The notes: generated by a model not told the origin, from the sequence alone. Shown: positions 15,479 to 31,744, counted from the first letter of the stretch. The stretch is DNA of 32,980 nt from Alphaproteobacteria bacterium (GCA_021776685.1 JAJFFJ010000020.1:1-32980), one strand, 5' to 3'. Numbers and translations are program-made.

Positions 15479-15558
15479 CTACCTGAGCTGACGTTTTTCG
15501 GCGCGTCTTATCTTAACTGGCGCTTTTCAGCGTCTTATCTTAATTGGCGCTTTTCAGC
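15479..15558 (-). repeat. Three successive coding ends for the same C-terminal peptide AEKRQLR-stop
   Basis: On the minus strand, 15535-15558 is the true 3' end of the Fe-S gene (AEKRQLR then TAA). It is followed by a near-exact 27-base tandem copy whose coding end is 15508-15531, with one base changed and the same peptide and TAA. A third, diverged copy at 15479-15502 encodes the same AEKRQLR with different codons and a TAG stop. The third copy sits 4 bases from the GGAGG of the next gene, a normal operon junction. The synonymous differences suggest it is the remnant of another paralogue rather than simple slippage. Confidence 0.8.
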
Positions 15559-16407
15559 GCCGACGGGGCAAACTCGCATACATTCGAAACACTGGCCCTG
15601 GCTGATGTTGGCATAGGTCATCGACCAGAGCGTTCGCGTCATCAGGGTCGAATTGAGGATCATCCGGCGCTTCTCCCGGTCATCCTCTTCAAACAGCTTT
15701 TCCATGGTCTTCTGGAATCCCGGCACCCAGTAGGTCTGGACGCGGGTGGTGCAGCGGGCCTGGTCGAAGCTGCGGCTGGCAATCTCGCCATCCTCGATCG
15801 TGCCGCCGATGCAGCCGCCGTCTTCGATGGGGCAGACAGCCATGCAGGGCGTCTTGCCCAACTCGTCATACATCTCCACGCATTCGGGCGCGGGGCAGGC
15901 TGGGGTTTCAGGCTGGGGGTCCGGTGTCATCGGCAACGTTGTAATGACGGCGGCGTAATACATGAAGCCATGTTCGGGGTGCAGCACGGGTCCTGCCAGA
16001 CTGGGCGACCCGCAGCCTGACAGTTCTGCCGCCAGCGACATGCTCAGAAACGGCTGCCGCCCCTTGTCCAGCGCCTGGGGCACGTTCAGCGCATAGTAGC
16101 CATAGGTGCGCTCGATGTGGGTCGCGACCCGATTGCCGAGCGCGCCAATGCGGTCGGTGGTCGAGCTCACTTCCATATGTTCGTATTTCGGGCTCTGCCA
16201 GTCCGCCGCCCGCGGCTGGGCGCCGCCCATGACGACGACGGATTTAGCACCGGGAAGATAGTCTGTCGGGCGATTGCCTTCCGGTGAGGCGGAAAACGCC
16301 TCAGCATCCGCCACCCCCATCACGACCGCGCCGCCTTTCTGGGTGAAGGCGCGCAGGTCTTCCTTGACGTTGCTGCCGATGTCCGCGCTTGCCGTTTCGT
16401 CCGCCAT
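15535..16407 (-). CDS. 4Fe-4S dicluster-type protein, second tandem paralogue
   Basis: This 290-residue protein has an N-terminal alpha/beta domain (YLPGAKSVVVMGG near residues 50-62) reminiscent of the non-cobalamin part of QueG/reductive-dehalogenase-like proteins, and a C-terminal cysteine-rich region: C171, C176, C188, C192 (PCMAVCP), C199, C219, then CFECMRVCP at C273, C276 and C280. Two 4Fe-4S clusters are likely. There is no Tat signal and no cobalamin-binding domain. It begins 7 bases after its paralogue (16415-17323) and ends in AEKRQLR, whose coding sequence recurs twice downstream. Probably an electron-transfer or reductase subunit forming a heteromer with the paralogue; substrate unknown. 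Confidence 0.8.
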   Translation of the reverse strand: MADETASADIGSNVKEDLRAFTQKGGAVVMGVADAEAFSASPEGNRPTDYLPGAKSVVVMGGAQPRAADWQSPKYEHMEVSSTTDRIGALGNRVATHIERTYGYYALNVPQALDKGRQPFLSMSLAAELSGCGSPSLAGPVLHPEHGFMYYAAVITTLPMTPDPQPETPACPAPECVEMYDELGKTPCMAVCPIEDGGCIGGTIEDGEIASRSFDQARCTTRVQTYWVPGFQKTMEKLFEEDDREKRRMILNSTLMTRTLWSMTYANISQGQCFECMRVCPVGAEKRQLR

Positions 16408-16414
16408 GACCTGC

Positions 16415-17323
16415 CTACTTCAGTTTCCGCTCGCCACGCCCAATGGGGCAGACGCGCATACATTCGAAACACTGGGCGACGCTTTCCTTGTAAAAGCTGA
16501 CCGCGCCACAGGAACGGGAGAAGAAATCCGAATTGATCATCATCTTCCGCTTGTCGTTGTCTTCCTCCTCGGCAATCTGGTCGAGCGCCTTCTGGAAGCT
16601 GGAAATACCGAAATTCATGGAGCGGGAGACGCAGCGTTCCCGGTCGTAATAGACGTGCTCCATGTTGCCGTCTTCGTCGATGGACCCGTCCAGGCAGCCG
16701 CCGTCGTCCGACGGGCAGGCCGCCATGCACGGCGTCTTGCCGATCTGCTTGTATGTCTGCACGCACATAGGCGCGGGGCACACGCCCTGCTCAAGCATGT
16801 CGTCATAGTCCAGCTCGAGCGTGGTGATGCAGGCGGAGTAGTAGAGGAGACCGTATTTCGGGTTGAGTATGATGTTTGCTGCGAAGGACCGGGTACCACA
16901 ACCTGCGAGCACGGCCGCCAGCATCATCGACATGCGCGGCTGGTAACCGGCGGTCGGCAGGGCCGGTCCCTGCAATGCGTAGTAGCCCAGCTTGGTCTCG
17001 ATATGGTCGGCGATCATGTGGATGGCGCGGTCATTGGCGAAGTCGTAGCCGTTGACCTCCATGATCCGGTGGTTAGGCGAGCGCCATGCGCCGGCGTTGG
17101 GCCCGCGCACGCCGACCACGATCACGGACTTGGCGTTCGGCAGGATGTCGTAAGGGCGATAGCCCTCCGGCACGAAGCTTTCCCAACGCTCAACAGGCGC
17201 GATGCCGACCACATCGCCGCCTGCCTTGAGAGCGAAGCCTTTGATCTGTTCCGTCAGCGCGGCCCGTTCGGTAGCGGTATCATCCGCCGCTTCTGTCTGG
17301 GCGTGTTCTTGCTGTGATGGCAC
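16415..17323 (-). CDS. 4Fe-4S dicluster-type protein, first tandem paralogue
   Basis: This 302-residue paralogue of the next gene shares its layout: YDILPNAKSVIVVGVRG near residues 58-73, KYGLLYYSACITTLE, then C182, C187, C199, C203 (PCMAACP), C210, C231 and CFECMRVCP at C285, C288 and C292. Two 4Fe-4S clusters are likely. The start is a GTG at 17323 with AAAGG about 7 bases upstream. It lies 75 bases downstream of an SDR gene, with a 7-base-arm palindrome in that gap. Cytoplasmic by absence of a signal. Database labels for such proteins are often epoxyqueuosine reductase-like; the pairing with CoA ligase and SDR argues against a queuosine role. Confidence 0.8.
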   Translation of the reverse strand: MPSQQEHAQTEAADDTATERAALTEQIKGFALKAGGDVVGIAPVERWESFVPEGYRPYDILPNAKSVIVVGVRGPNAGAWRSPNHRIMEVNGYDFANDRAIHMIADHIETKLGYYALQGPALPTAGYQPRMSMMLAAVLAGCGTRSFAANIILNPKYGLLYYSACITTLELDYDDMLEQGVCPAPMCVQTYKQIGKTPCMAACPSDDGGCLDGSIDEDGNMEHVYYDRERCVSRSMNFGISSFQKALDQIAEEEDNDKRKMMINSDFFSRSCGAVSFYKESVAQCFECMRVCPIGRGERKLK

Positions 17324-21725: not shown

Positions 21726-23078
21726 ATGCCCCAGGTTCATTCAATCCGCTCATTTGTAAACCGGGCGGAAATCTGGATTCGCAGCCGACTCTGGCTGCAG
21801 GTGATAGTGGCGCTGGTATTGGGCGTTGGGGTGGGCGCATTGCTGGGCCCAGATGTAAACTGGGTGGAGCAGGATCTGGCTGACGACATCGTCCGTTGGC
21901 TTGCCTTGCCGGGCAAACTGTTCCTGGGATTGATCACGCTGGTCTTGGAGCCGCTTGTTTTCGCGTCGATCATCCAGGGCCTGACCGGCCGGGCCACGGG
22001 CAGCGAACTGCGTCGGGTGGGCACAAGGCTTCTGGCTTTTGTGGTGCTGACCACGCTGGCGGCAACGGCTCTCGGCCTGGTGCTTGCAACGACCATCAAT
22101 CCCGGCAGTCAGGTCACCATGCCCGCGGGTGCAGCGGCCAAGCCGGCGACCGCCCCTAGTGCAGCAAGCCCATCACTGAAAAAGGTGCCGGATCTGATCG
22201 AGAAGCTGATCCCGACCAATCCGACGAAGTCGATTCTGGACCGTGACCTGCTGGCGATCGTGCTGATCGCAATCTTGCTGGGCCTGGCCGCACGCCAGGT
22301 CGACCCCGAGCTCGTGGCGCCCTTTCTCGGATTCATGAATGCGCTTCTTGGTATCGCCATGACAATTGTCAAATGGGCGATGTTCCTGACGCCTTGGGCG
22401 GTATTCGGATTGATGGCCCAGGCTGTATCCAAAGTAGGTCTCGCAACCCTCGGCGGGCTCGGCGCCTATGTTGGCACGGTCCTGGTCGGGCTCCTGGCGC
22501 TCTACATAATATATCTTTTGCTGGTCTGGGTTCTGGGGAGGCGTAACCCTTTCTGGTTCGCGCGGAATATTGGCGGTGCGCAGCTGCTCGCCTTCTCGAC
22601 TTCCAGTTCGGCGGCGGTGATGCCGGTGTCGATTGAAACGGCGGTCACCCGGCTGGGCGTGCGCGAACGGATTGCCAGTCTCGTGGTGCCGCTGGGTGCG
22701 ACGATCAATATGGCCGGCACTGCACTCTACCAGGCCGTTGCCGTGCTGTTCCTGGCGCAGCTATCAAATGTCACCTTGGGCGTCGGCGACCTAACGCTGA
22801 TCGTTTTTACCCTGGTGGCGGCGTCGATCGGCGCACCCGGCACGCCCGGTGTCAGTATTGTCATATTGTCGACGGTGGTAACCGGATTTGGCATTCCGGC
22901 GGCCGGACTGGTGCTTGTGCTTGGGGTCGACCGGTTACTCGATATGGCGCGCACGGTCGTTAACGTCACCGGTGATCTGGCGGCCTGTGTGATCCTGCGC
23001 GGCAGTCTGGATGCGGAGACTGCCCAGGCGCCGCCGTCGCCCGATCCCTCGCCTGCGCCGGACCGTCTTGTGACCTAG
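21726..23078 (+). CDS. Dicarboxylate/amino acid:cation symporter (DAACS family, Glt-type)
   Basis: This 450-residue membrane protein has the family layout of eight helices and two re-entrant hairpins. HP1 carries the serine-rich FSTSSSAAVMP (290-300), HP2 has IGAPGTPGVS (369-377), and TM8 has D402, D406, R409, N413 and D417, matching the GltPh residues that bind acidic amino acids. The TM7 motif, normally NMDGT, reads NMAGT (328-332), so the acidic residue of the third sodium site is alanine; ion coupling may differ. A loop rich in Ala, Pro and Ser (134-150) lies between TM3 and TM4. AGGAG precedes the ATG. Probably imports glutamate, aspartate or a related dicarboxylate. Confidence 0.92.
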   Translation: MPQVHSIRSFVNRAEIWIRSRLWLQVIVALVLGVGVGALLGPDVNWVEQDLADDIVRWLALPGKLFLGLITLVLEPLVFASIIQGLTGRATGSELRRVGTRLLAFVVLTTLAATALGLVLATTINPGSQVTMPAGAAAKPATAPSAASPSLKKVPDLIEKLIPTNPTKSILDRDLLAIVLIAILLGLAARQVDPELVAPFLGFMNALLGIAMTIVKWAMFLTPWAVFGLMAQAVSKVGLATLGGLGAYVGTVLVGLLALYIIYLLLVWVLGRRNPFWFARNIGGAQLLAFSTSSSAAVMPVSIETAVTRLGVRERIASLVVPLGATINMAGTALYQAVAVLFLAQLSNVTLGVGDLTLIVFTLVAASIGAPGTPGVSIVILSTVVTGFGIPAAGLVLVLGVDRLLDMARTVVNVTGDLAACVILRGSLDAETAQAPPSPDPSPAPDRLVT

Positions 23079-24178
23079 GCCGCTGCCTTCTTGAGGGCTG
23101 CGGCGGCTTCCAGGCCGCGGGTCTTGGCGTCGTCATAGTCCGGGGCCGTGAGATCAAGGCTATCGAGGACCTGCTGCATTTCGGTGTGATAGGCGTACCG
23201 CAGCTTCTCGTTGCTGTGCTGTTTCAATCCCATGCGCCGCCACATCTCGCTGTTGCGGGAGTTCTCGCCGCCAAAGGCCGCCATGTGGAACGGGTAGAAA
23301 TGTTCGTCGAGGCGCTTCTGCACATGCGCGCGTCCCGTTTCGTCGGAGGACTCAAGAAAGTCCCGCACGTTCAGATAACCCATGTTGCAGTGACCGCGTT
23401 CGTCCTTGACGATTTTGAGCGCCACGCCGGCGAGTGGTGCGTAGGAGCTTTGCACCCATTCAAAGGCCTGATAGGTGCCGAGCCGGTCCGCCAGCATGTT
23501 GAAGATGGCGTAGTCGAGCCAGGTGCCGTCGGTCTTCACTTCCATATAGGCGCGGAAGACTTCCAGCTCGTGCTGATGGATTTTGTGGGGCAGCTGCGGA
23601 TCGTAGGCGCTGTAGAGTTCGTAGAACAAAAACGTGTGGCGCAGCTCCTCGTTGGCGAAGTTGGAGAAGCGCAGCCGGCCCGTGGCGTTCGGCGCCTGAC
23701 GGATGATTTTCTCGTCAATGATCTCGTACATGCTGCCCACGTCCTTGGCCTCTTCGCCAAAGAGCGGCACCATGCACTCGCCGTGGGCGTAGAACAGCTT
23801 CTCGAGCCATTCACGGTAGTCATCCGGCAGATCGGCGCTGCCGTCATACTGGCGGGGGCCGGCAATACGCTCGACGCCGTCGTCATCCGCAGCATGAGCC
23901 AGAAACATGTCCGGGATGCCGGCGAAGAAGGTGCGGGTTGCTTTGGGCAGCGGGCCATAGGGCTCGGAGAAATGCCGCTCCATCGACCAGACGAAGTCCT
24001 CGCGCCGTCCGCCATGCGCCTCCAGGTAAGGCGTCATGGCCTCCGCCAGTTCCTCCAGGGTCGCGCAGCCGTTCCAGGTGTCCGCCGGTACGTCGTCCAG
24101 GGCAGCGCACAGCGCCGGGATCACGTCCGGGGCGGGGTACCAGATGTTCTGCACGGCGCGACGGTCGATGGGGAACAT
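23075..24178 (-). CDS. PaaA/BoxB-like ferritin-fold diiron oxygenase
   Basis: This 367-residue, all-helical protein has paired iron-ligand motifs: E178-x2-H181 in NEELRHTF and E260-x2-H263 in KDERGHCN, the second followed by GYLNVRDFLE. This fits the PaaA epoxidase subunit and its relatives, which epoxidise CoA-bound aromatic rings. The usual partners PaaB, C, D and E are absent. The start at 24178 (MFPIDRRAVQNIWYP) is backed by AAGGA about 8 bases upstream. Its stop shares a CTAG with the stop of the convergent symporter. It is divergent from a CoA ligase-TetR operon with a strong dyad between, so its substrate is probably the CoA ester made by that ligase. Confidence 0.78.
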   Translation of the reverse strand: MFPIDRRAVQNIWYPAPDVIPALCAALDDVPADTWNGCATLEELAEAMTPYLEAHGGRREDFVWSMERHFSEPYGPLPKATRTFFAGIPDMFLAHAADDDGVERIAGPRQYDGSADLPDDYREWLEKLFYAHGECMVPLFGEEAKDVGSMYEIIDEKIIRQAPNATGRLRFSNFANEELRHTFLFYELYSAYDPQLPHKIHQHELEVFRAYMEVKTDGTWLDYAIFNMLADRLGTYQAFEWVQSSYAPLAGVALKIVKDERGHCNMGYLNVRDFLESSDETGRAHVQKRLDEHFYPFHMAAFGGENSRNSEMWRRMGLKQHSNEKLRYAYHTEMQQVLDSLDLTAPDYDDAKTRGLEAAAALKKAAA

Positions 24179-24250
24179 GGGCAAGTCCTTGCGTAATTGC
24201 ACCGTGCCCAATGGGGCCGGCGCGTTGATTTTTCTAGCCGAATGAACTCT

Positions 24251-24278
24251 ATGATAATCAAACTGACCCATGAGTCAA
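24251..24278 (-). promoter_or_regulatory. Promoter for the diiron oxygenase gene
   Basis: On the minus strand TTGACT (24278-24273) and TATCAT (24256-24251) are separated by 16 bases; each matches the sigma-70 consensus at five of six positions. The -35 box lies inside the left half of the 31-base dyad. This gives a leader of roughly 65 bases before the ATG at 24178. Confidence 0.6.
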
Positions 24279-24296
24279 TTAATTTGACACATGGGT
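24266..24296. promoter_or_regulatory. 31-base dyad operator covering both divergent -35 boxes
   Basis: Outer arms ACCCATG and CATGGGT and inner arms GTCAA and TTGAC are all perfect, separated by one unpaired A on each side, around a TTAAT centre (24279-24283). The dyad contains the -35 hexamer of each divergent promoter. Twelve paired bases per arm is far above chance in this GC-rich DNA. The TetR-family gene at 26048, in the operon it would control, is the natural candidate to bind here. Confidence 0.72.
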
Positions 24297-24312
24297 ACTA
24301 AACGCCGATGAT
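24284..24312 (+). promoter_or_regulatory. Promoter for the CoA ligase-tetR operon
   Basis: A perfect -35 hexamer TTGACA (24284-24289), 17 bases, then GATGAT (24307-24312), four of six matches to the -10 consensus. The -35 is inside the right half of the dyad, so repressor binding would block polymerase. The leader before the ATG at 24396 is about 75 bases. Confidence 0.5.
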
Positions 24313-24395
24313 AGAGCAAGATTTGAGCGACCGTGGGGCGGGCGAAATGGCCCGTAACCCGGCGGCGCGCTCTTGCAAGCTGAGGGAGAAAAGGG

Positions 24396-26024
24396 ATGTC
24401 GGACCCGCATACCGATCAACGGATTCTGCAGCGTGATCAATGTGTCATCCGCTACGTACTCGACCGGCACGCTCGCGAGCAGGGAGACAAGACCTTCATC
24501 GCCTTTCCCGATGGCCGCACCCTCAGCTATGCCGAAGTGCGTCAGCAGGTGCTGGCGACGGCCGACGCGCTGCGCGAACTGGGTGTGGAAAAAGGCGGTT
24601 GCGTCATGTCGTGGCTGCCAAATGGCCTGGACATCATCAACGTGCTGCTAGCCGCCAACTATCTTGGTGCGGTCCATGTACCGATCAATACCGCCTATCG
24701 TGGCAATCTGCTGGAGCATGTTGTGCGCAATTCCGGCGCCACCGTCATGGTTGCCCACCACGAGCTGACCGGCCGATTGGCCGACATTGATCTCAGCGAG
24801 CTGAAGCACCTGGTCAGTGTTGGCGGTCCGGCGGTTGACGTGCCGGCGGCGCTCGGCGTCCATGGTACGGATATATTCGACCGTCCTCCGCCGGACAGCC
24901 TTCCGGAGCCGGAGGCGCCGATCGAGCCCTGGGATACCCAGTCGATCATCTACACCTCAGGCACCACCGGGCCGTCCAAAGGCGTGCTGTCGTCCTATTT
25001 CCACCTGTGGTCCATGGGCGAGGCGACCTGCTACTACGCCGGGCCTGACGACCGCAGCCTCTGCTACCTGCCTTTCTTCCACGCGGCCAGTCTGGCCGGC
25101 TTCATGAAGATGGTCTGCGACGGCGGTTCCATCGGCCTGGTCGACGCCTTCGACACGGCGCGCTTTTGGTCCGACATCAATGCGACCCGGTCGACCACCT
25201 GCATGATGCTCGGCTCCATCGCCACCTTCCTGGCGAAGCAGGGCCGTACCGCAGAAGAGGAGGCAACGACGCTCAAGACGCTGTTGGGTGCGCCACTGAA
25301 TGCCGACGCCGTGGAGATCTGCCAGCGCTCGAACTTCGAGGGCTACGCCTGCTGGAACATGACCGAGACCTCGACACCAATCATTAGCGGCGCCAATCCA
25401 ACCAAAGCGGGTACGTGCGGCGTGGTCCGGGCGGGCGCACAGGCGCGGCTGGTGGACGATAATGATTGCGAGGTGCCGGTGGGCGAGGTTGGTGAACTGC
25501 TACTGCGCACCGATGCGCCCTGGGCCATGAACTCCGGCTACAACAAAGATTCGGAGGCGACGGCCCGGGCCTGGCGGAACGGCTGGTTCCACACCGGCGA
25601 CGCCTTCCGCATGGACGCGGAAGGCGACTTCTTCTTTGTCGACCGCATCAAGGACGCCATCCGCCGCCGGGGCGAAAACATCTCGTCCATGGAGGTGGAG
25701 CGTGAGGTCAACGCGCATCCGATGGTCGCTAATTCCGCCGCGGTCGCGATCCCCAGCGAATATGGCGAGGACGAAGTTATGATCGTGGTCGAGCCGGCGA
25801 CGGGCGAAACCGTTGACCCGGCGGAACTGACCGAGTTCCTGATTCCGCGCATGGCACACTTCATGGTCCCACGTTACTTCCGCTTCATCGACGAATTGCC
25901 CAAGACCCCGACCATGAAGATTCAGAAGAACCTGCTGCGCGCTGAAGGCATTACCGCCGAGACCTGGGACCGGGATGCCGCGGGCATCAAAATCAGCCGC
26001 GAAAAGCTCGGTGCGGGTTCCTGA
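24396..26024 (+). CDS. Acyl-CoA ligase (AMP-forming), CaiC-like
   Basis: This 542-residue adenylate-forming ligase has IIYTSGTTGPSKGVLS near residues 184-199, CWNMTETSTPI, NGWFHTGDAFRMDAEGDFFFVDRIKD, RRGENISSMEVEREV and the C-terminal lysine in TPTMKIQKNLLR. The RRRGENISS wording and overall length are like crotonobetaine/carnitine-CoA ligases and related enzymes. It forms the CoA thioester of a carboxylic acid. It is followed after 23 bases by the tetR gene and is divergent from the diiron oxygenase, suggesting CoA activation followed by oxygenation of the same substrate. Carnitine itself is not implied. Confidence 0.92.
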   Translation: MSDPHTDQRILQRDQCVIRYVLDRHAREQGDKTFIAFPDGRTLSYAEVRQQVLATADALRELGVEKGGCVMSWLPNGLDIINVLLAANYLGAVHVPINTAYRGNLLEHVVRNSGATVMVAHHELTGRLADIDLSELKHLVSVGGPAVDVPAALGVHGTDIFDRPPPDSLPEPEAPIEPWDTQSIIYTSGTTGPSKGVLSSYFHLWSMGEATCYYAGPDDRSLCYLPFFHAASLAGFMKMVCDGGSIGLVDAFDTARFWSDINATRSTTCMMLGSIATFLAKQGRTAEEEATTLKTLLGAPLNADAVEICQRSNFEGYACWNMTETSTPIISGANPTKAGTCGVVRAGAQARLVDDNDCEVPVGEVGELLLRTDAPWAMNSGYNKDSEATARAWRNGWFHTGDAFRMDAEGDFFFVDRIKDAIRRRGENISSMEVEREVNAHPMVANSAAVAIPSEYGEDEVMIVVEPATGETVDPAELTEFLIPRMAHFMVPRYFRFIDELPKTPTMKIQKNLLRAEGITAETWDRDAAGIKISREKLGAGS

Positions 26025-26047
26025 CCTGCGAGCCTGATCATCGAACC

Positions 26048-26653
26048 ATGACTCAACCCGCCCGCACCAAACAGGATGTTGTCGCCGAATTCCGGCAGTC
26101 GGAAATTATCGATGCTGCCCGCCGGGTCATCGCCCGCGACGGCCCGCAGAAGGCGTCGATGGAGCGGATCGCCGAAGAAGCAAACATCTCCAAGGGCACG
26201 CTCTATCTCTACTTCGACAGCAAGGGTGCGCTGGTCCGGGAAGCCACCGAACGCGGCCATGCGGAGATGGCAGCCTATGTCAATGCAGCGATGTCGGATG
26301 CCGGGTCCGCAATCGGGACGATCAACGCCTATGTGCGGTCGACCCTGGCGTTTTGCGACGAACATGAGATGTTGTTTCGCGCGATGAACACTTATCCGGA
26401 CAGCGACGGCGACGTCACCAGCAACGCGGTGGCCCGTTACGTCGACGGCTATATCGAGCGTCTACAGCAGGTGGTGCAGCAGGGCGTCGACGCCGGGGAC
26501 CTGCGGCCGGTGAATGCCCGCCGGTTCGCCCGCCTGCTGGTCGAGGCCGTGCGCGGTATTGTTATCGAGCGCCTTCGGGAAAAAGCGCCCTTGCCGGTCA
26601 ATGAAGATGCGGAGGCTATTGTCGCCATTTTGCTGGATGGCGTGCGCGCCTAA
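26048..26653 (+). CDS. TetR-family transcriptional regulator
   Basis: This 201-residue regulator has an N-terminal TetR helix-turn-helix at about residues 37-60 (SMERIAEEANISKGTLYLYFDSKGAL) and an all-helical C-terminal ligand domain ending in a long helix. Regulators of this type usually repress and are released by a pathway metabolite, often an acyl- or aryl-CoA. It is co-transcribed with the CoA ligase; the 31-base dyad at 24266-24296 in front of that operon is its likely target, which would make it autoregulated. No clear ribosome site precedes the ATG, so it may be translated at low level. A terminator hairpin follows. Confidence 0.92.
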   Translation: MTQPARTKQDVVAEFRQSEIIDAARRVIARDGPQKASMERIAEEANISKGTLYLYFDSKGALVREATERGHAEMAAYVNAAMSDAGSAIGTINAYVRSTLAFCDEHEMLFRAMNTYPDSDGDVTSNAVARYVDGYIERLQQVVQQGVDAGDLRPVNARRFARLLVEAVRGIVIERLREKAPLPVNEDAEAIVAILLDGVRA

Positions 26654-26713: not shown

Positions 26714-27916
26714 CTAGTTCTCGTACCTGCCCACGATCGATACGCTGCTCACATTCTGGTGCGGGAAGCCGCCCAGATTGTGGGTCAGGCCGATCCGCGG
26801 GTCGTCAAGCTGGCGCTCGCCGGCGCGGCCGAGAATCTGACTGTACATTTCATAGAGCATGCGCAGACCTGACGCGCCGATCGGGTGGCCGAAGCATTTC
26901 AGGCCGCCGTCTATCTGGCAGGGGATCTTGCCGTCGGCATTGTAGAAGCCGTCGAGGATGTCCTTCCAGGCCGTGCCTTCCGGCGACAGATACAGGTCTT
27001 CCATGGTCACCAATTCGGTGATCGAAAAGCAGTCGTGGCACTCGAGCATCGAAACTTCTTCGCGGGGCTTCTTGATGCCGGCTTCGGCATAGGCCCGTTC
27101 CGCCGCCCGGCGGGTGGTCATGAAATAACTGCCGTCCCAGGAATTGTGGCTCGCCTCGGTGCCGTTGGAGACGGCTAGTTGCAGGGCCTTGACCGAGACC
27201 AGGTCGGTTTTGCCCAGGGAGCGCGCGATCTCTGGTGTCGTGACGATGGCCGCGGCGGAGCCGTCGGAGACGCCGCAACAGTCGAACAGGCCGAGCGGCT
27301 CGGCGACCATCGGCGCGTTCAGGACCGTGTCGATGTCGATTTTGTTGCGCAGATGGGCGCGCTCGTTCTTGGCGCCGTTGTCATGGCTCTTCACCGAGAC
27401 CTGGGCCATGGCCTTCTTCAGCTCCCCCGCGTCCACACCATGCTTGGCGGAGTAGGCCGTGGCGAGCTGGGCAAAGCTGCCCGGGGCGGAGAAGTTGGGC
27501 CAGTACATGTCTGCGACCGCGCCGCGCATGCGCTGGGGCAGGCCGCCATAACCGGTGTCCTTCAGCTTCTCGACGCCTACGGCGATGGCGATGTCGGCAG
27601 CACCGGAGGCTACGGCATAGACCGCACCGCGGAAGGACTCGGTGCCGGAGGCGCAGTAGTTTTCCACCCGGGTCACCGGGATGTAAGGCAGGCGCAGTGC
27701 GACCGCGAGGGGCACGCCGGACTTGCCTACATGAACTTCTTCGATCGCCGTCGAGAACCATGCGGCGTCGATCTGGTTCCGCTCGACGCCGGCGTCATCA
27801 AGGCATTCCTCGACCGCCTCGACAATCAGGTCCTCGGCGTTCATGTCCCAGCGCTCGCCGAATTTCGAGCAGCCCATGCCCAGAATGGCGACCTTGTCCT
27901 TGATTCCTTTCGGCAT
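26714..27916 (-). CDS. Thiolase-fold protein, SCP2/acetyl-CoA acetyltransferase-like
   Basis: This 400-residue thiolase-fold protein has the nucleophile segment VENYCASGTESF (C88) and the FGHPIGASG loop (H344). As in the thiolase at 10043, the C-terminal CxG is absent; HNLGGFPHQN stands in its place, typical of SCP2-type thiolases and of proteins that work with DUF35 OB-fold partners. The ATG at 27916 is preferred over the GTG directly before it; GGAGG is 5 bases upstream. It is the last gene of the minus-strand group that includes the HAD hydrolase and the HMGCS-like/DUF35 fusion, a possible partner. Thiolytic cleavage or retro-aldol cleavage are both open. Confidence 0.88.
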   Translation of the reverse strand: MPKGIKDKVAILGMGCSKFGERWDMNAEDLIVEAVEECLDDAGVERNQIDAAWFSTAIEEVHVGKSGVPLAVALRLPYIPVTRVENYCASGTESFRGAVYAVASGAADIAIAVGVEKLKDTGYGGLPQRMRGAVADMYWPNFSAPGSFAQLATAYSAKHGVDAGELKKAMAQVSVKSHDNGAKNERAHLRNKIDIDTVLNAPMVAEPLGLFDCCGVSDGSAAAIVTTPEIARSLGKTDLVSVKALQLAVSNGTEASHNSWDGSYFMTTRRAAERAYAEAGIKKPREEVSMLECHDCFSITELVTMEDLYLSPEGTAWKDILDGFYNADGKIPCQIDGGLKCFGHPIGASGLRMLYEMYSQILGRAGERQLDDPRIGLTHNLGGFPHQNVSSVSIVGRYEN

Positions 27917-27998
27917 CACTGCCTCCTCAATTCGGGTCTTCTGCGGTTGTGCCTAGGTTAAGTCGTGATGGCGGTTTTAGGAACCACCTTTGAAATCT

Positions 27999-28862: not shown

Positions 28863-30317
28863 TTACGCCGCCCGTTGGTCGGGAACAGCTTTCCAGAAAT
28901 ACTTCTTGAAACCCCGTTTGTCGTCCACGGCCTTGACGCGGAAGGACATGCGCACGGGCATGCCAACTTCCACCTCGCCCGGGCTGACGTCGGTGATGTC
29001 CGCCATCAGGCGGCCGCCTTCCTCGAACACGACCATGCCGAAGTGGGTCGGCGGGTCGGGGCTGTAGGTCAGGTTGTCCGCCGTCCAGCTCTGGATGCTG
29101 GCCGGGATTTCCGCGAACGGATGCGGTTCCTGGCTGTTGAACTCGCCGCAATTGGGGCTGACACAGACCCGGCTGGCCGGATATTGCACCGTGCCGCAGG
29201 TCCGGCATTTGCCGCCCACGAAGCCGAGGATCATGTCCTTGTTGCGATAGAGCGCGCTGATTGCCGTCGGGGAATCCACCTCCGCCCGGATGCCGCGGTC
29301 CTGCAGCACAAGGTTGTTGAATGAGAGATAGCGGTTGTAGTTGGTGTCTTCCTTGCGGCGCGCCAGCGACCCCTTGACGCCATTGCGGGGTGAGAGGTCC
29401 TTCAGTGCATCGGTTACACGGAACAGCAGCACGTCGCAGCCATTGCCCCAGCCGACAACCATGATGATCTGGCCGGGCTCTGCGTCCTGCAGGGCGTCCA
29501 CCAGCATGACCAGCGGATGGGCGGAGCCGGCCTCACCCAGATTGCCATGCAGCTGGTCGCGGATGGCCTCGGCCTTGATGCCGGCCTCTTTCGTCAGCCG
29601 TTCCGGCACCCGCCGGATCAGGCAGGGCATGACGAAATGGTCGATGGTGGCGGCGTCGACACCGGTTTTCTCGAGTGCGGCGGCGATTGCGCGGGGGACA
29701 ATCTTGAAATAGCCCTCGTCGCGGATCCAGCGCTCCTCCCAGTTATAATCGAAGTCCTCGTTGCCGCCGCGATAGTGGTCGACGAAGTCGATGGCCAGTT
29801 GATAGCCACCCAGATATTCCGCGATCACCCCGTCACTGCCGACCGTAAATGCTGCCGCCGCGTCACCGAATTGCAGCTCCTGGGGGCCTGCAGCTTTGGT
29901 GCGGCGCTTGTCGCTGGCCGTGATCAACCCAGGGCTGCCCTTGCCCCCGGCCACGTCCATTGCCTGGACCAGACCTGACGTACCGGCGCGCTGTGAGCCG
30001 ACAATATCCATCACCGTGATGTCCTCGCCGAAGTTCAGCGCGGTCGCCATGATGCCGGCATTCTGCCGGTCGTCGAAGGGCAGGGTTGTTGAGGCAAAAT
30101 AGAGCGCGGAAATTTCTTCCGGCCGCTCGCCCGCCAGGCAGTCCCGCGCGGCCTCGACGGCCATGGTCAGGCTGTCCTCATCCCAGTTGCAGATGGCGCG
30201 CTCGCCCTTCGCCAGGCCCTTGATGGCGGGGTTGAACCAGGCGTTGGCGTCGACAATCGCCTGCCGTTGCAGGCGCAGGCGGGGCACATAGGCGCCGTAA
30301 GCAGTAATTCCGATCAT
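28863..30317 (-). CDS. HMG-CoA synthase-like protein fused to a DUF35 zinc-ribbon/OB-fold domain
   Basis: This 484-residue protein joins two parts. Residues 1-340 are a thiolase-superfamily synthase fold of HMG-CoA synthase/KAS III type (MIGITAYGAYVPRLRL; YFASTTLPF; GDAAAAFTVG; HGNLGEAGSAHPL). Where active members have the acylated Cys, the segment reads VGSQRAGTSGL, so Q109 sits at or next to that position and no Cys is present. Residues 360-484 are a DUF35 domain: rubredoxin-like knuckles C371, C374, C385 and C390, then an OB-fold. DUF35 proteins bind CoA esters and partner SCP2-type thiolases and aldolases. A lyase or scaffold role with the neighbouring thiolase is plausible; classical condensation is unlikely. 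Confidence 0.85.
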   Translation of the reverse strand: MIGITAYGAYVPRLRLQRQAIVDANAWFNPAIKGLAKGERAICNWDEDSLTMAVEAARDCLAGERPEEISALYFASTTLPFDDRQNAGIMATALNFGEDITVMDIVGSQRAGTSGLVQAMDVAGGKGSPGLITASDKRRTKAAGPQELQFGDAAAAFTVGSDGVIAEYLGGYQLAIDFVDHYRGGNEDFDYNWEERWIRDEGYFKIVPRAIAAALEKTGVDAATIDHFVMPCLIRRVPERLTKEAGIKAEAIRDQLHGNLGEAGSAHPLVMLVDALQDAEPGQIIMVVGWGNGCDVLLFRVTDALKDLSPRNGVKGSLARRKEDTNYNRYLSFNNLVLQDRGIRAEVDSPTAISALYRNKDMILGFVGGKCRTCGTVQYPASRVCVSPNCGEFNSQEPHPFAEIPASIQSWTADNLTYSPDPPTHFGMVVFEEGGRLMADITDVSPGEVEVGMPVRMSFRVKAVDDKRGFKKYFWKAVPDQRAA

Positions 30318-30365: not shown

Positions 30366-30547
30366 TGACTCTATCTCAAGAACCCGTGTTCCCTTCGCGT
30401 CATTCCGACCGGAGCCCTGAAGGGCCGGAGCGGAGGGTTCTTGCCTGCGCGCTATATTCACCTGCCAGCAAGCCGAGGTCCCAGTCCAAGGTCCCAGTAC
30501 CGCGCCGGGCGATGCCCGGCTTCGCTCGGGATGACGTTTGACTCTAT
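30366..30547. mobile_element. MITE-like palindromic element with 9-base flanking direct repeats
   Basis: TGACTCTAT occurs at 30366-30374 and again at 30539-30547, bracketing a 164-base stretch full of palindromes: CGTCATTCCGA (30398-30408) against TCGGGATGACG (30526-30536, one mismatch), CAAGAACCC (30377-30385) against GGGTTCTTG (30435-30443), and GCCCT/AGGGC at 30413-30424. GGTCCCAGT is also repeated twice near 30477-30498. No coding frame is credible. The flanking repeat looks like a target-site duplication; the right copy overlaps the stop codon of the flavin monooxygenase gene. Alternatively it is an ancestral RIME-like repeat with chance flanks. Confidence 0.55.
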
Positions 30548-31686
30548 TCCGCCGCGGCGGCCAGTGCCTGAATCGGATGGGGCCGCGGATTGATATCGCT
30601 CCGGCCCACTTCCACGCCCACGTCCAGCGCTTTCACCCGAGGCAGCACTTTTTCCGCGAAGGTATGGATATTCTGCTTCGCCATGTCATGGGGCATCCCG
30701 CCATAGCTGAAGACGCCCATGAAGCCGGCGCAATCCGTCATCCGCTGATAGTCGGCCATCTTCTTGTAGACCTCATCCGGGGTGCCCCAGATCTGCAGGT
30801 CCGCCAGGAAGTCGATGAACTGGTCGACGCCGTGCTTGTTAATGTTCTTGGAGAGGCCGGCGTAATATTCATAGCCCTTCACGTCCGCCAATCCCTCGTT
30901 GTTGAATTCGTAATGATCAAGGGCGGATTTTGAGTAGCCACGGATATATTTCGCGCGCATTTCCTGTGCGGTTGCCGCGTCTTCGTGACAGCCGATGAAG
31001 GCCAGCATGATCGGCTTCGGCGGCTCGGCGCCGTCATTTTCCTCGCGATAGATGGTGCGGTAATTCTCCAGGTCTTCCAGGGTCTTGTCCCAGGGCTTCT
31101 GGGCGATGATCAGCACGCCTGCACCCATGCGTGCGCCGATCCGGGCGCTCTCAGGCGAAACCGCTGACATGTAGGCTCGGCCGTGGAAGGTGGCGAACGG
31201 CGCCGGACGGATATCCGTGGGCACCTGTTTATATAGCTCGCCGTCATGCTGGATCGTGCCGGTGTCGAGCGCATTCAATACGGCATCGGAATATTCGATG
31301 AAGCGCTGCCGCGATTCGTTCATGTCCTTCTGGAATCCCTCGAACTCGATCCGGCCGAGACCGCGGCCCATGCCGAGGATCGCCCGTCCGCCGGACATAT
31401 GGTCGAGCACCGAAAACTCTTCCGCCACGCGGATCGGGTCGTGCCACGGCAGGACCACCACCATCGAGCCGAGCTTCACACGGGTGGTTCGGCCGGCCAT
31501 GTAGGTGAGAAACTGGAGCACGTTCGGACACATGGTGTAGTCGTCGAAGTGATGCTCGGCGGACCAGATCGAGTCGAACCCAAGTGGTTCCGCGAGATCC
31601 GCCATCGACAGTTCGTGGGCGTAGACCTCGGCATCGGACATGCCCGGAATCTTGTTCTGAAAAAAAGCGCTGTAACCCATATGCAT
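30544..31686 (-). CDS. LLM-class flavin-dependent monooxygenase (luciferase-like)
   Basis: This 380-residue protein has the bacterial-luciferase TIM-barrel pattern: GFDSIWSAEHHFDDYTMCPN near residues 36-55, TTRVKLGSMVVVLPWHDPIRVAEE near 66-90, and LGMGRGLGRIEFEGF near 105-120. It uses FMNH2 supplied by a separate reductase, which is not in the window, and oxygen to oxidise ketones, aldehydes or rings. The ATG at 31686 (MHMGYSAFFQNK) has GGGAG 8 bases upstream, better than a TTG five codons earlier. Its stop codon lies in the right flanking repeat of a palindromic element. It diverges from the atypical SDR, with a 10-base-arm palindrome between. Confidence 0.9.
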   Translation of the reverse strand: MHMGYSAFFQNKIPGMSDAEVYAHELSMADLAEPLGFDSIWSAEHHFDDYTMCPNVLQFLTYMAGRTTRVKLGSMVVVLPWHDPIRVAEEFSVLDHMSGGRAILGMGRGLGRIEFEGFQKDMNESRQRFIEYSDAVLNALDTGTIQHDGELYKQVPTDIRPAPFATFHGRAYMSAVSPESARIGARMGAGVLIIAQKPWDKTLEDLENYRTIYREENDGAEPPKPIMLAFIGCHEDAATAQEMRAKYIRGYSKSALDHYEFNNEGLADVKGYEYYAGLSKNINKHGVDQFIDFLADLQIWGTPDEVYKKMADYQRMTDCAGFMGVFSYGGMPHDMAKQNIHTFAEKVLPRVKALDVGVEVGRSDINPRPHPIQALAAAAE

Positions 31687-31744
31687 GGTGGATTCTCCCA
31701 AATCGTTGAGGGCACTCCATCAAACGATTGCTCCTCGGTCAAGA

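Follow-up and report, generated by a model that had tools for sequence, protein, structure and literature searches.

The closest described systems are PaaA of the PaaABC(D)E phenylacetyl-CoA epoxidase and the benzoyl-CoA epoxidase BoxB. The iron ligands of PaaA are Glu42, Glu72, His75, Asp126, Glu155 and His158, and a further residue, Lys68 (the 'lysine bridge'), has been proposed to participate in electron transfer (PMC4498308). BoxB binds iron through Glu120, Glu150, His153, Asp211, Glu240 and His243 (PMC5489048). It is monomeric, needs no structural subunit and is the studied member of this stand-alone kind (PMC4498308). PaaR and MbdR are TetR repressors that respond to CoA thioesters, which release them (PMC4424350). 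Here, we describe a diiron protein that forms part of a rare branch of the PaaA/BoxB family and is encoded opposite a CoA ligase and a TetR-family regulator. Stand-alone members of the superfamily are already known from BoxB, and the source genome itself has several PaaA-like proteins without PaaB. What is new is a clade with its own N-terminal region and a recurrent CoA-ester context, of which we found no description in the open literature searched.

The window, meaning the whole stretch of 32,980 nucleotides analysed here, is contig 70 of a 4.54-Mb assembly (158 contigs, 98.9% complete). ORF and Pfam analysis placed the diiron gene on the minus strand, facing the ligase and tetR genes on the plus strand (Table 1). 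These three reading frames, named in a preliminary description, were recovered at their positions, each with coding-type GC3 and a Pfam match. The ligase matches PF00501 with an E value of 1e-63; its closest NCBIfam model is PRK06155, below whose cut-off it stays (478 against 722 bits). Next to the tetR gene, on the opposite strand, lie a thiolase, a HAD hydrolase and a fusion protein (28863–30317) that joins an archaeal-type HMG-CoA-synthase-like domain to a ChsH2/DUF35 zinc-ribbon/OB-fold domain. The thiolase, whose link to the diiron gene is purely positional, is a possible downstream enzyme.

Table 1 Features of the diiron–ligase–tetR locus, in window coordinates
Feature	Position	Strand	Basis
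Diiron protein, 367 aa	23075–24178	minus	PaaA_PaaC superfamily PF05138, alignments, tree
AMP-forming CoA ligase, 542 aa	24396–26024	plus	PF00501/PF13193; NCBIfam
TetR-family regulator, 201 aa	26048–26653	plus	PF00440, E 4e-17; 23 bp after ligase
Palindrome, likely operator, both −35 boxes inside	24266–24296		8/2000 shuffles equal or better
Promoter-like site for ligase–tetR, TTGACA-17-GATGAT	24284–24312	plus	Promoter scan
Promoter-like site for diiron gene, TTGACT-16-TATCAT	24251–24278	minus	Promoter scan
Thiolase, PRK06157 type	26714–27919	minus	NCBIfam, 693 bits against cut-off 403

The start of the diiron gene had been set at 24271, about 31 codons too early. We place it at 24178 (MFPIDRR) because the homologues open with M-FPIDKR at the equivalent position, an AAGGAC ribosome-binding-like (Shine–Dalgarno-like) site lies just before it, and the predicted promoter occupies 24278–24251. 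With the promoter there, the transcript would begin below 24271 and would not cover the 31 additional codons at the front of the longer reading frame.

The diiron protein exceeds the gathering cut-off of PF05138 (PaaA_PaaC; 54.8 against 28.5 bits, E = 1.1e-14) and stays under those for PaaA (TIGR02156; 39.3 against 280 bits) and PaaC (TIGR02158; 29.2 against 133.35 bits). We rejected the possibility of a mislabelled BoxB: at E ≤ 0.001 the BoxB model TIGR03225 (cut-off 499.1) does not report the protein in its own genome, whereas it reports two true BoxB copies there, at 780 and 860 bits. Compared with solved structures, a profile of the clade matched PaaA (4iit, 1e-13), 4mud (2.4e-6) and, weakly, BoxB (0.17). 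In profile comparison, PaaA-like proteins from the source genome and other genomes matched as a group with probability 99.8, E. coli PaaA with 97.9, BoxB with 79.8 and PaaC with 0.4; similarity to the first three begins at about residue 102–115, and to BoxB at 115.

In the phylogenetic tree, six proteins including that of the window form one clade (support 100/100). Their nearest relatives (89/92) are PaaB-independent PaaA-like proteins encoded beside a PaaK-type ligase, found on contig 76 of the source genome, in L043 and L048, and as G830 in L067. These share with the clade the independence from PaaB, the HxE motif on helix A and AMP-ligase neighbours, but have only ~28–34% identity to it, lack the N-terminal region and accompany another type of ligase. 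The 235-residue 4mud, related to PaaA and PaaC and deposited as a ring-oxidation-complex-related protein, is a single-domain relative with a solved structure, but is too short to contain the N-terminal region.

Both ExxH motifs of the preliminary description are present, as E178LRH181 and E260RGH263. The predicted ligand set comprises E134, E178, H181, D231, E260 and H263, with E134 less certain than the others. The last five align with Glu72, His75, Asp126, Glu155 and His158 of PaaA and with Glu150, His153, Asp211, Glu240 and His243 of BoxB, and all five are invariant across the six-member clade. In the alignment, most of these ligands are lost from the non-catalytic E. coli PaaC. E134, located on helix A within an HxE motif common to the sister group, is likewise invariant in the clade. 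It is the least certain ligand because the stretch before it is two residues shorter than in PaaA and BoxB, with 12 residues from the conserved PxxYR to E134 against 14 in both of these. The position of PaaA Lys68 is occupied by Phe174. An AlphaFold2 prediction of the diiron protein from two sequences (window and L009) had a pLDDT of 44.8, too low for a usable model. In G830 (L067:8104–8925), the nearest outgroup of the clade, Ser replaces the Asp ligand; a PaaK-like ligase and a thiolase are encoded close by.

The N-terminal ~110 residues are specific to the clade and conserved within it, and align with none of the PaaA-like group, PaaA, BoxB or PaaC. Searches of Pfam and the PDB with this region returned no convincing match. 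It holds ERHFSEPYGPLPKA, among the best conserved blocks of the whole protein, and may stand in for the missing PaaB and PaaC partners. Compared with PaaA, the diiron protein thus shares the PF05138 core, five clearly aligned iron ligands with E134 as a less certain sixth, the C-terminal motif, the CoA-ester pathway context and, in PaaR, a precedent for TetR control. It differs from PaaA in its extra N-terminal region, a longer loop between helices A and B, and the replacement of the bridging lysine; PaaB is missing from the chromosomal clade genomes, and neither PaaC nor PaaE is linked. With BoxB it has in common its stand-alone character and the profile similarity over the region from residue 115, but its N-terminal region has no counterpart in the alignment, BoxC is not encoded alongside and the protein falls outside TIGR03225.

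No PaaB, PaaC, PaaD or PaaE gene had been seen nearby, and the window indeed contains none. The preliminary description had allowed for partners elsewhere on the chromosome. For PaaB, this is excluded within assembly completeness, because the gene is absent from all five chromosomal clade genomes (G000, G091, G123, G227 and G655). A PaaE-like reductase does occur in the source genome, the sole one found (67 bits against a cut-off of 421), but it lies on another contig, 142, and belongs to another cluster. In that cluster (L045:5847–8629), a PaaA-like diiron gene directly follows an SDR gene and the reductase, which is of the Fer2-FAD-NAD type. The homologues are not found inside paaABCDE operons, and the diiron gene of the clade has neither a linked reductase gene nor a recurring partner gene alongside. 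At least seven other PaaA_PaaC-domain proteins are encoded in the source genome. Two of the PaaA-like genes are adjacent on contig 76 (L042:7001–11735), together with genes for a TetR regulator, a PaaK-type ligase and an enoyl-CoA hydratase. They make up a further PaaA-like module free of PaaB, to which related genes occur in L043 and L048.

The five homologues of the diiron protein have 53–67% identity over the aligned length and come from a betaproteobacterial metagenome-assembled genome (L009), a plasmid of Variovorax sp. WDL1, which was obtained from linuron-contaminated soil, and three genomes that belong to the same class as the window (L039, L040 and L041). The clade therefore spans alpha- and betaproteobacteria, and it is rare. 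It is present in 4 of 289 genomes of the window's class, counting the source genome, which is the only carrier among 61 relatives. Among 399 genomes of the order of L009, the clade occurs in that of L009 only, and one further genome has a distant relative that lacks the N-terminal region. Scans of viral contigs and of phage records found no further relatives.

The preliminary description proposed a compact module of a stand-alone diiron protein, a CoA ligase and a TetR regulator. This linkage recurs in another genome: L009 keeps the head-to-head pair and the regulator, again without PaaB, with identities to the window of 63% (diiron protein), 71% (ligase) and 54% (TetR). There, the diiron gene faces the ligase gene, followed by a thiolase and the TetR gene, with ABC transporter genes behind; two MaoC-type reading frames, one under the Pfam cut-off, come after the diiron gene. 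In the other four of the six clade members, this ligase is not found opposite the diiron gene. On the WDL1 plasmid, genes for an AMP-ligase of a different, PaaK-like type, two MaoC-type proteins and a thiolase face those for the diiron protein, an SDR and a ChsH2-type OB-fold (DUF35) protein. Behind the OB-fold gene of this cluster, thiolase-like pieces without an annotated gene (L058:22290–22976) are probably a broken gene. In L039 and L040, the series is SDR, diiron protein, luciferase-like oxidoreductase, a 170-residue protein, enoyl-CoA hydratase and TetR; L039 also encodes a B12-dependent mutase near the cluster, and L040 has similar reading frames. The window also encodes a luciferase-like (LLM) protein (30547–31701), but at 21–23% identity we rejected it as a close counterpart of those beside the diiron gene in L039 and L040.

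Besides following the locus in the window, thiolase genes thus adjoin the diiron gene in both L009 and WDL1, and four of the six neighbourhoods include a TetR gene (window, L009, L039 and L040; L041 is a short contig). The common denominator of the clade neighbourhoods is CoA-ester metabolism. The pairing with the ligase therefore stands for the window and L009, but 'compact' does not describe the clade, whose other members lie among thiolase, MaoC, SDR, DUF35, enoyl-CoA hydratase and B12-mutase genes. Because these members lack the ligase and sit amid such genes, the diiron step probably belongs to a more extended CoA-ester pathway.

The 'strong shared operator' of the preliminary description proved to be a 31-bp palindrome, ACCCATGAGTCAAttaatTTGACACATGGGT, between the divergent genes, in which 12 of the 13 arm positions pair. 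Of 2000 first-order Markov shuffles of this intergenic region, 8 contained a palindrome at least as good. This region also contains two promoter-like sites, compared with 0.3 expected, and their −35 hexamers, TTGACA (plus strand, 24284) and TTGACT (minus strand, 24278), each form the inner part of one arm of the palindrome. A protein bound there would therefore block both promoters. We infer that this protein is the TetR regulator of the window, which combines a PF00440 domain with a palindrome over both predicted −35 boxes, as a CoA-ester-sensing regulator of the PaaR/MbdR type would. As in MbdR and PaaR, a TetR repressor, an operator over promoter elements and adjoining CoA-ester catabolic genes are predicted for the window; the operator sequence, in contrast, differs from the ATACN10GTAT of MbdR (PMC4424350). 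By analogy with PaaR and MbdR, the regulator may sense a CoA ester, the simplest inducer to propose because CoA thioesters release those two repressors. Conservation of the operator sequence was considered and rejected for L009 and WDL1, in neither of which the window palindrome was found. A different, perfect 16-bp palindrome, GACTGACGCGTCAGTC, lies upstream of the diiron gene in L039 (8023–8038), L040 (10140–10155) and L041 (675–690), common to all three although the remaining upstream region differs. Within the window, a half-site resembling one operator arm, CCATGACTCAA (26046–26056), overlies the tetR start codon and is a possible second, autoregulatory site of tetR; 0.01 occurrences of its pattern, which was picked after both sites were seen, would be expected in the window.

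Taken as a whole, the locus reads best as a TetR-controlled catabolic module of a stand-alone CoA-thioester monooxygenase and a ligase, an interpretation that we favour with somewhat better than even confidence. In this scheme, whose catalysis, CoA-ester substrate, electron supply and inducer are proposed, the divergent ligase would turn an acid into its CoA ester. The diiron protein, with the ferritin-like fold of PaaA and BoxB, would then add one oxygen atom to this ester by epoxidation or hydroxylation. It probably does so alone, needing, like BoxB, neither a structural subunit of the PaaC type nor PaaB as a bridge, while a reductase encoded elsewhere would supply the electrons. Thiolase-, dehydrogenase- or hydratase-type enzymes would handle the product. 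On the palindrome, the TetR regulator would cover both −35 boxes and repress both genes until the inducer, most simply the CoA ester, frees it. Points against the scheme are the shortened stretch before E134, Phe174 at the place of the bridging lysine, the lack of a linked reductase gene, the poor AlphaFold2 model, the four clade members without this ligase on the divergent side and the failure to find the window palindrome in L009 or WDL1. That the oxygenated ester is the product of the adjoining ligase is suggested by analogy with the PaaR and MbdR systems.

It is this last connection that the most serious alternative disputes. The diiron protein could receive its substrate from elsewhere, for example later in side-chain or ring degradation, with the ligase and the regulator sharing only its promoter region, as genes that all serve one larger pathway. 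Such an arrangement would fit the four clade members without this ligase opposite and the diiron genes of WDL1, L039 and L040, set amid thiolase, MaoC, SDR or B12-mutase genes, and ligases of the same subfamily, with about 50% identity, are widespread in other contexts. The window and L009, which belong to different classes, nevertheless keep the pairing, and their ligases are far closer to each other (71%) than the other matches are (46–54%). We consider shared regulation alone unlikely but retain it with appreciable weight, because the pairing is limited to these two loci and the subfamily is so widespread.

Dependence on partners, in which the protein would be a subunit of a scattered complex, pairing with another PaaA-like protein and borrowing a PaaE-type reductase, appears less probable still. 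In the absence of PaaC, PaaA is insoluble (PMC4498308), and the source genome offers both the other PaaA_PaaC-domain proteins and one PaaE-like reductase; yet PaaB is missing from every chromosomal clade genome, no partner gene recurs beside the diiron gene, and the clade-specific N-terminal region together with the BoxB precedent provides a simpler solution. Least probable, and by a wide margin below an even chance, is that the diiron protein keeps this fold but is no oxygenase, serving for example as a desaturase, or that its iron site is altered. The shortening of helix A ahead of E134 and the Ser in the near relative G830 would agree with this, but no other ligand varies within the clade.

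A second lineage of the stand-alone kind, equipped with a conserved N-terminal region of its own and found in chromosomal genomes that all lack PaaB, would show another build of CoA-ester oxygenase. In proteobacteria, its presence would also indicate an aerobic CoA-ester route not yet described, carried in one case on a plasmid from linuron-contaminated soil. For the favoured module, the adjoining ligase makes the substrate of the diiron protein a directly testable question. More speculatively, and with a confidence well short of even, the clade could represent a self-standing family of CoA-ester oxygenases in which the N-terminal domain replaces PaaC and PaaB, another electron route replaces PaaE and the first iron-binding helix is re-registered. 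If so, the family would add a third architecture to those of PaaABCE and BoxAB, and its substrate would be neither benzoyl-CoA nor phenylacetyl-CoA.

Apart from the diiron locus, the window (15535–17323) and L043 (2634–4657) each encode tandem proteins of ~300 aa that contain Cys-rich motifs of a 4Fe-4S-like type; one of these proteins has a weak likeness to reductive dehalogenases (26 against 160 bits). In L043, the genes next to the two Fe-S proteins encode a PaaK-like ligase and a HAD protein homologous to those of the window (48% and 41%, respectively). The co-occurrence of tandem Fe-S proteins, PaaK-like ligase and HAD protein in both places suggests a second conserved cluster.
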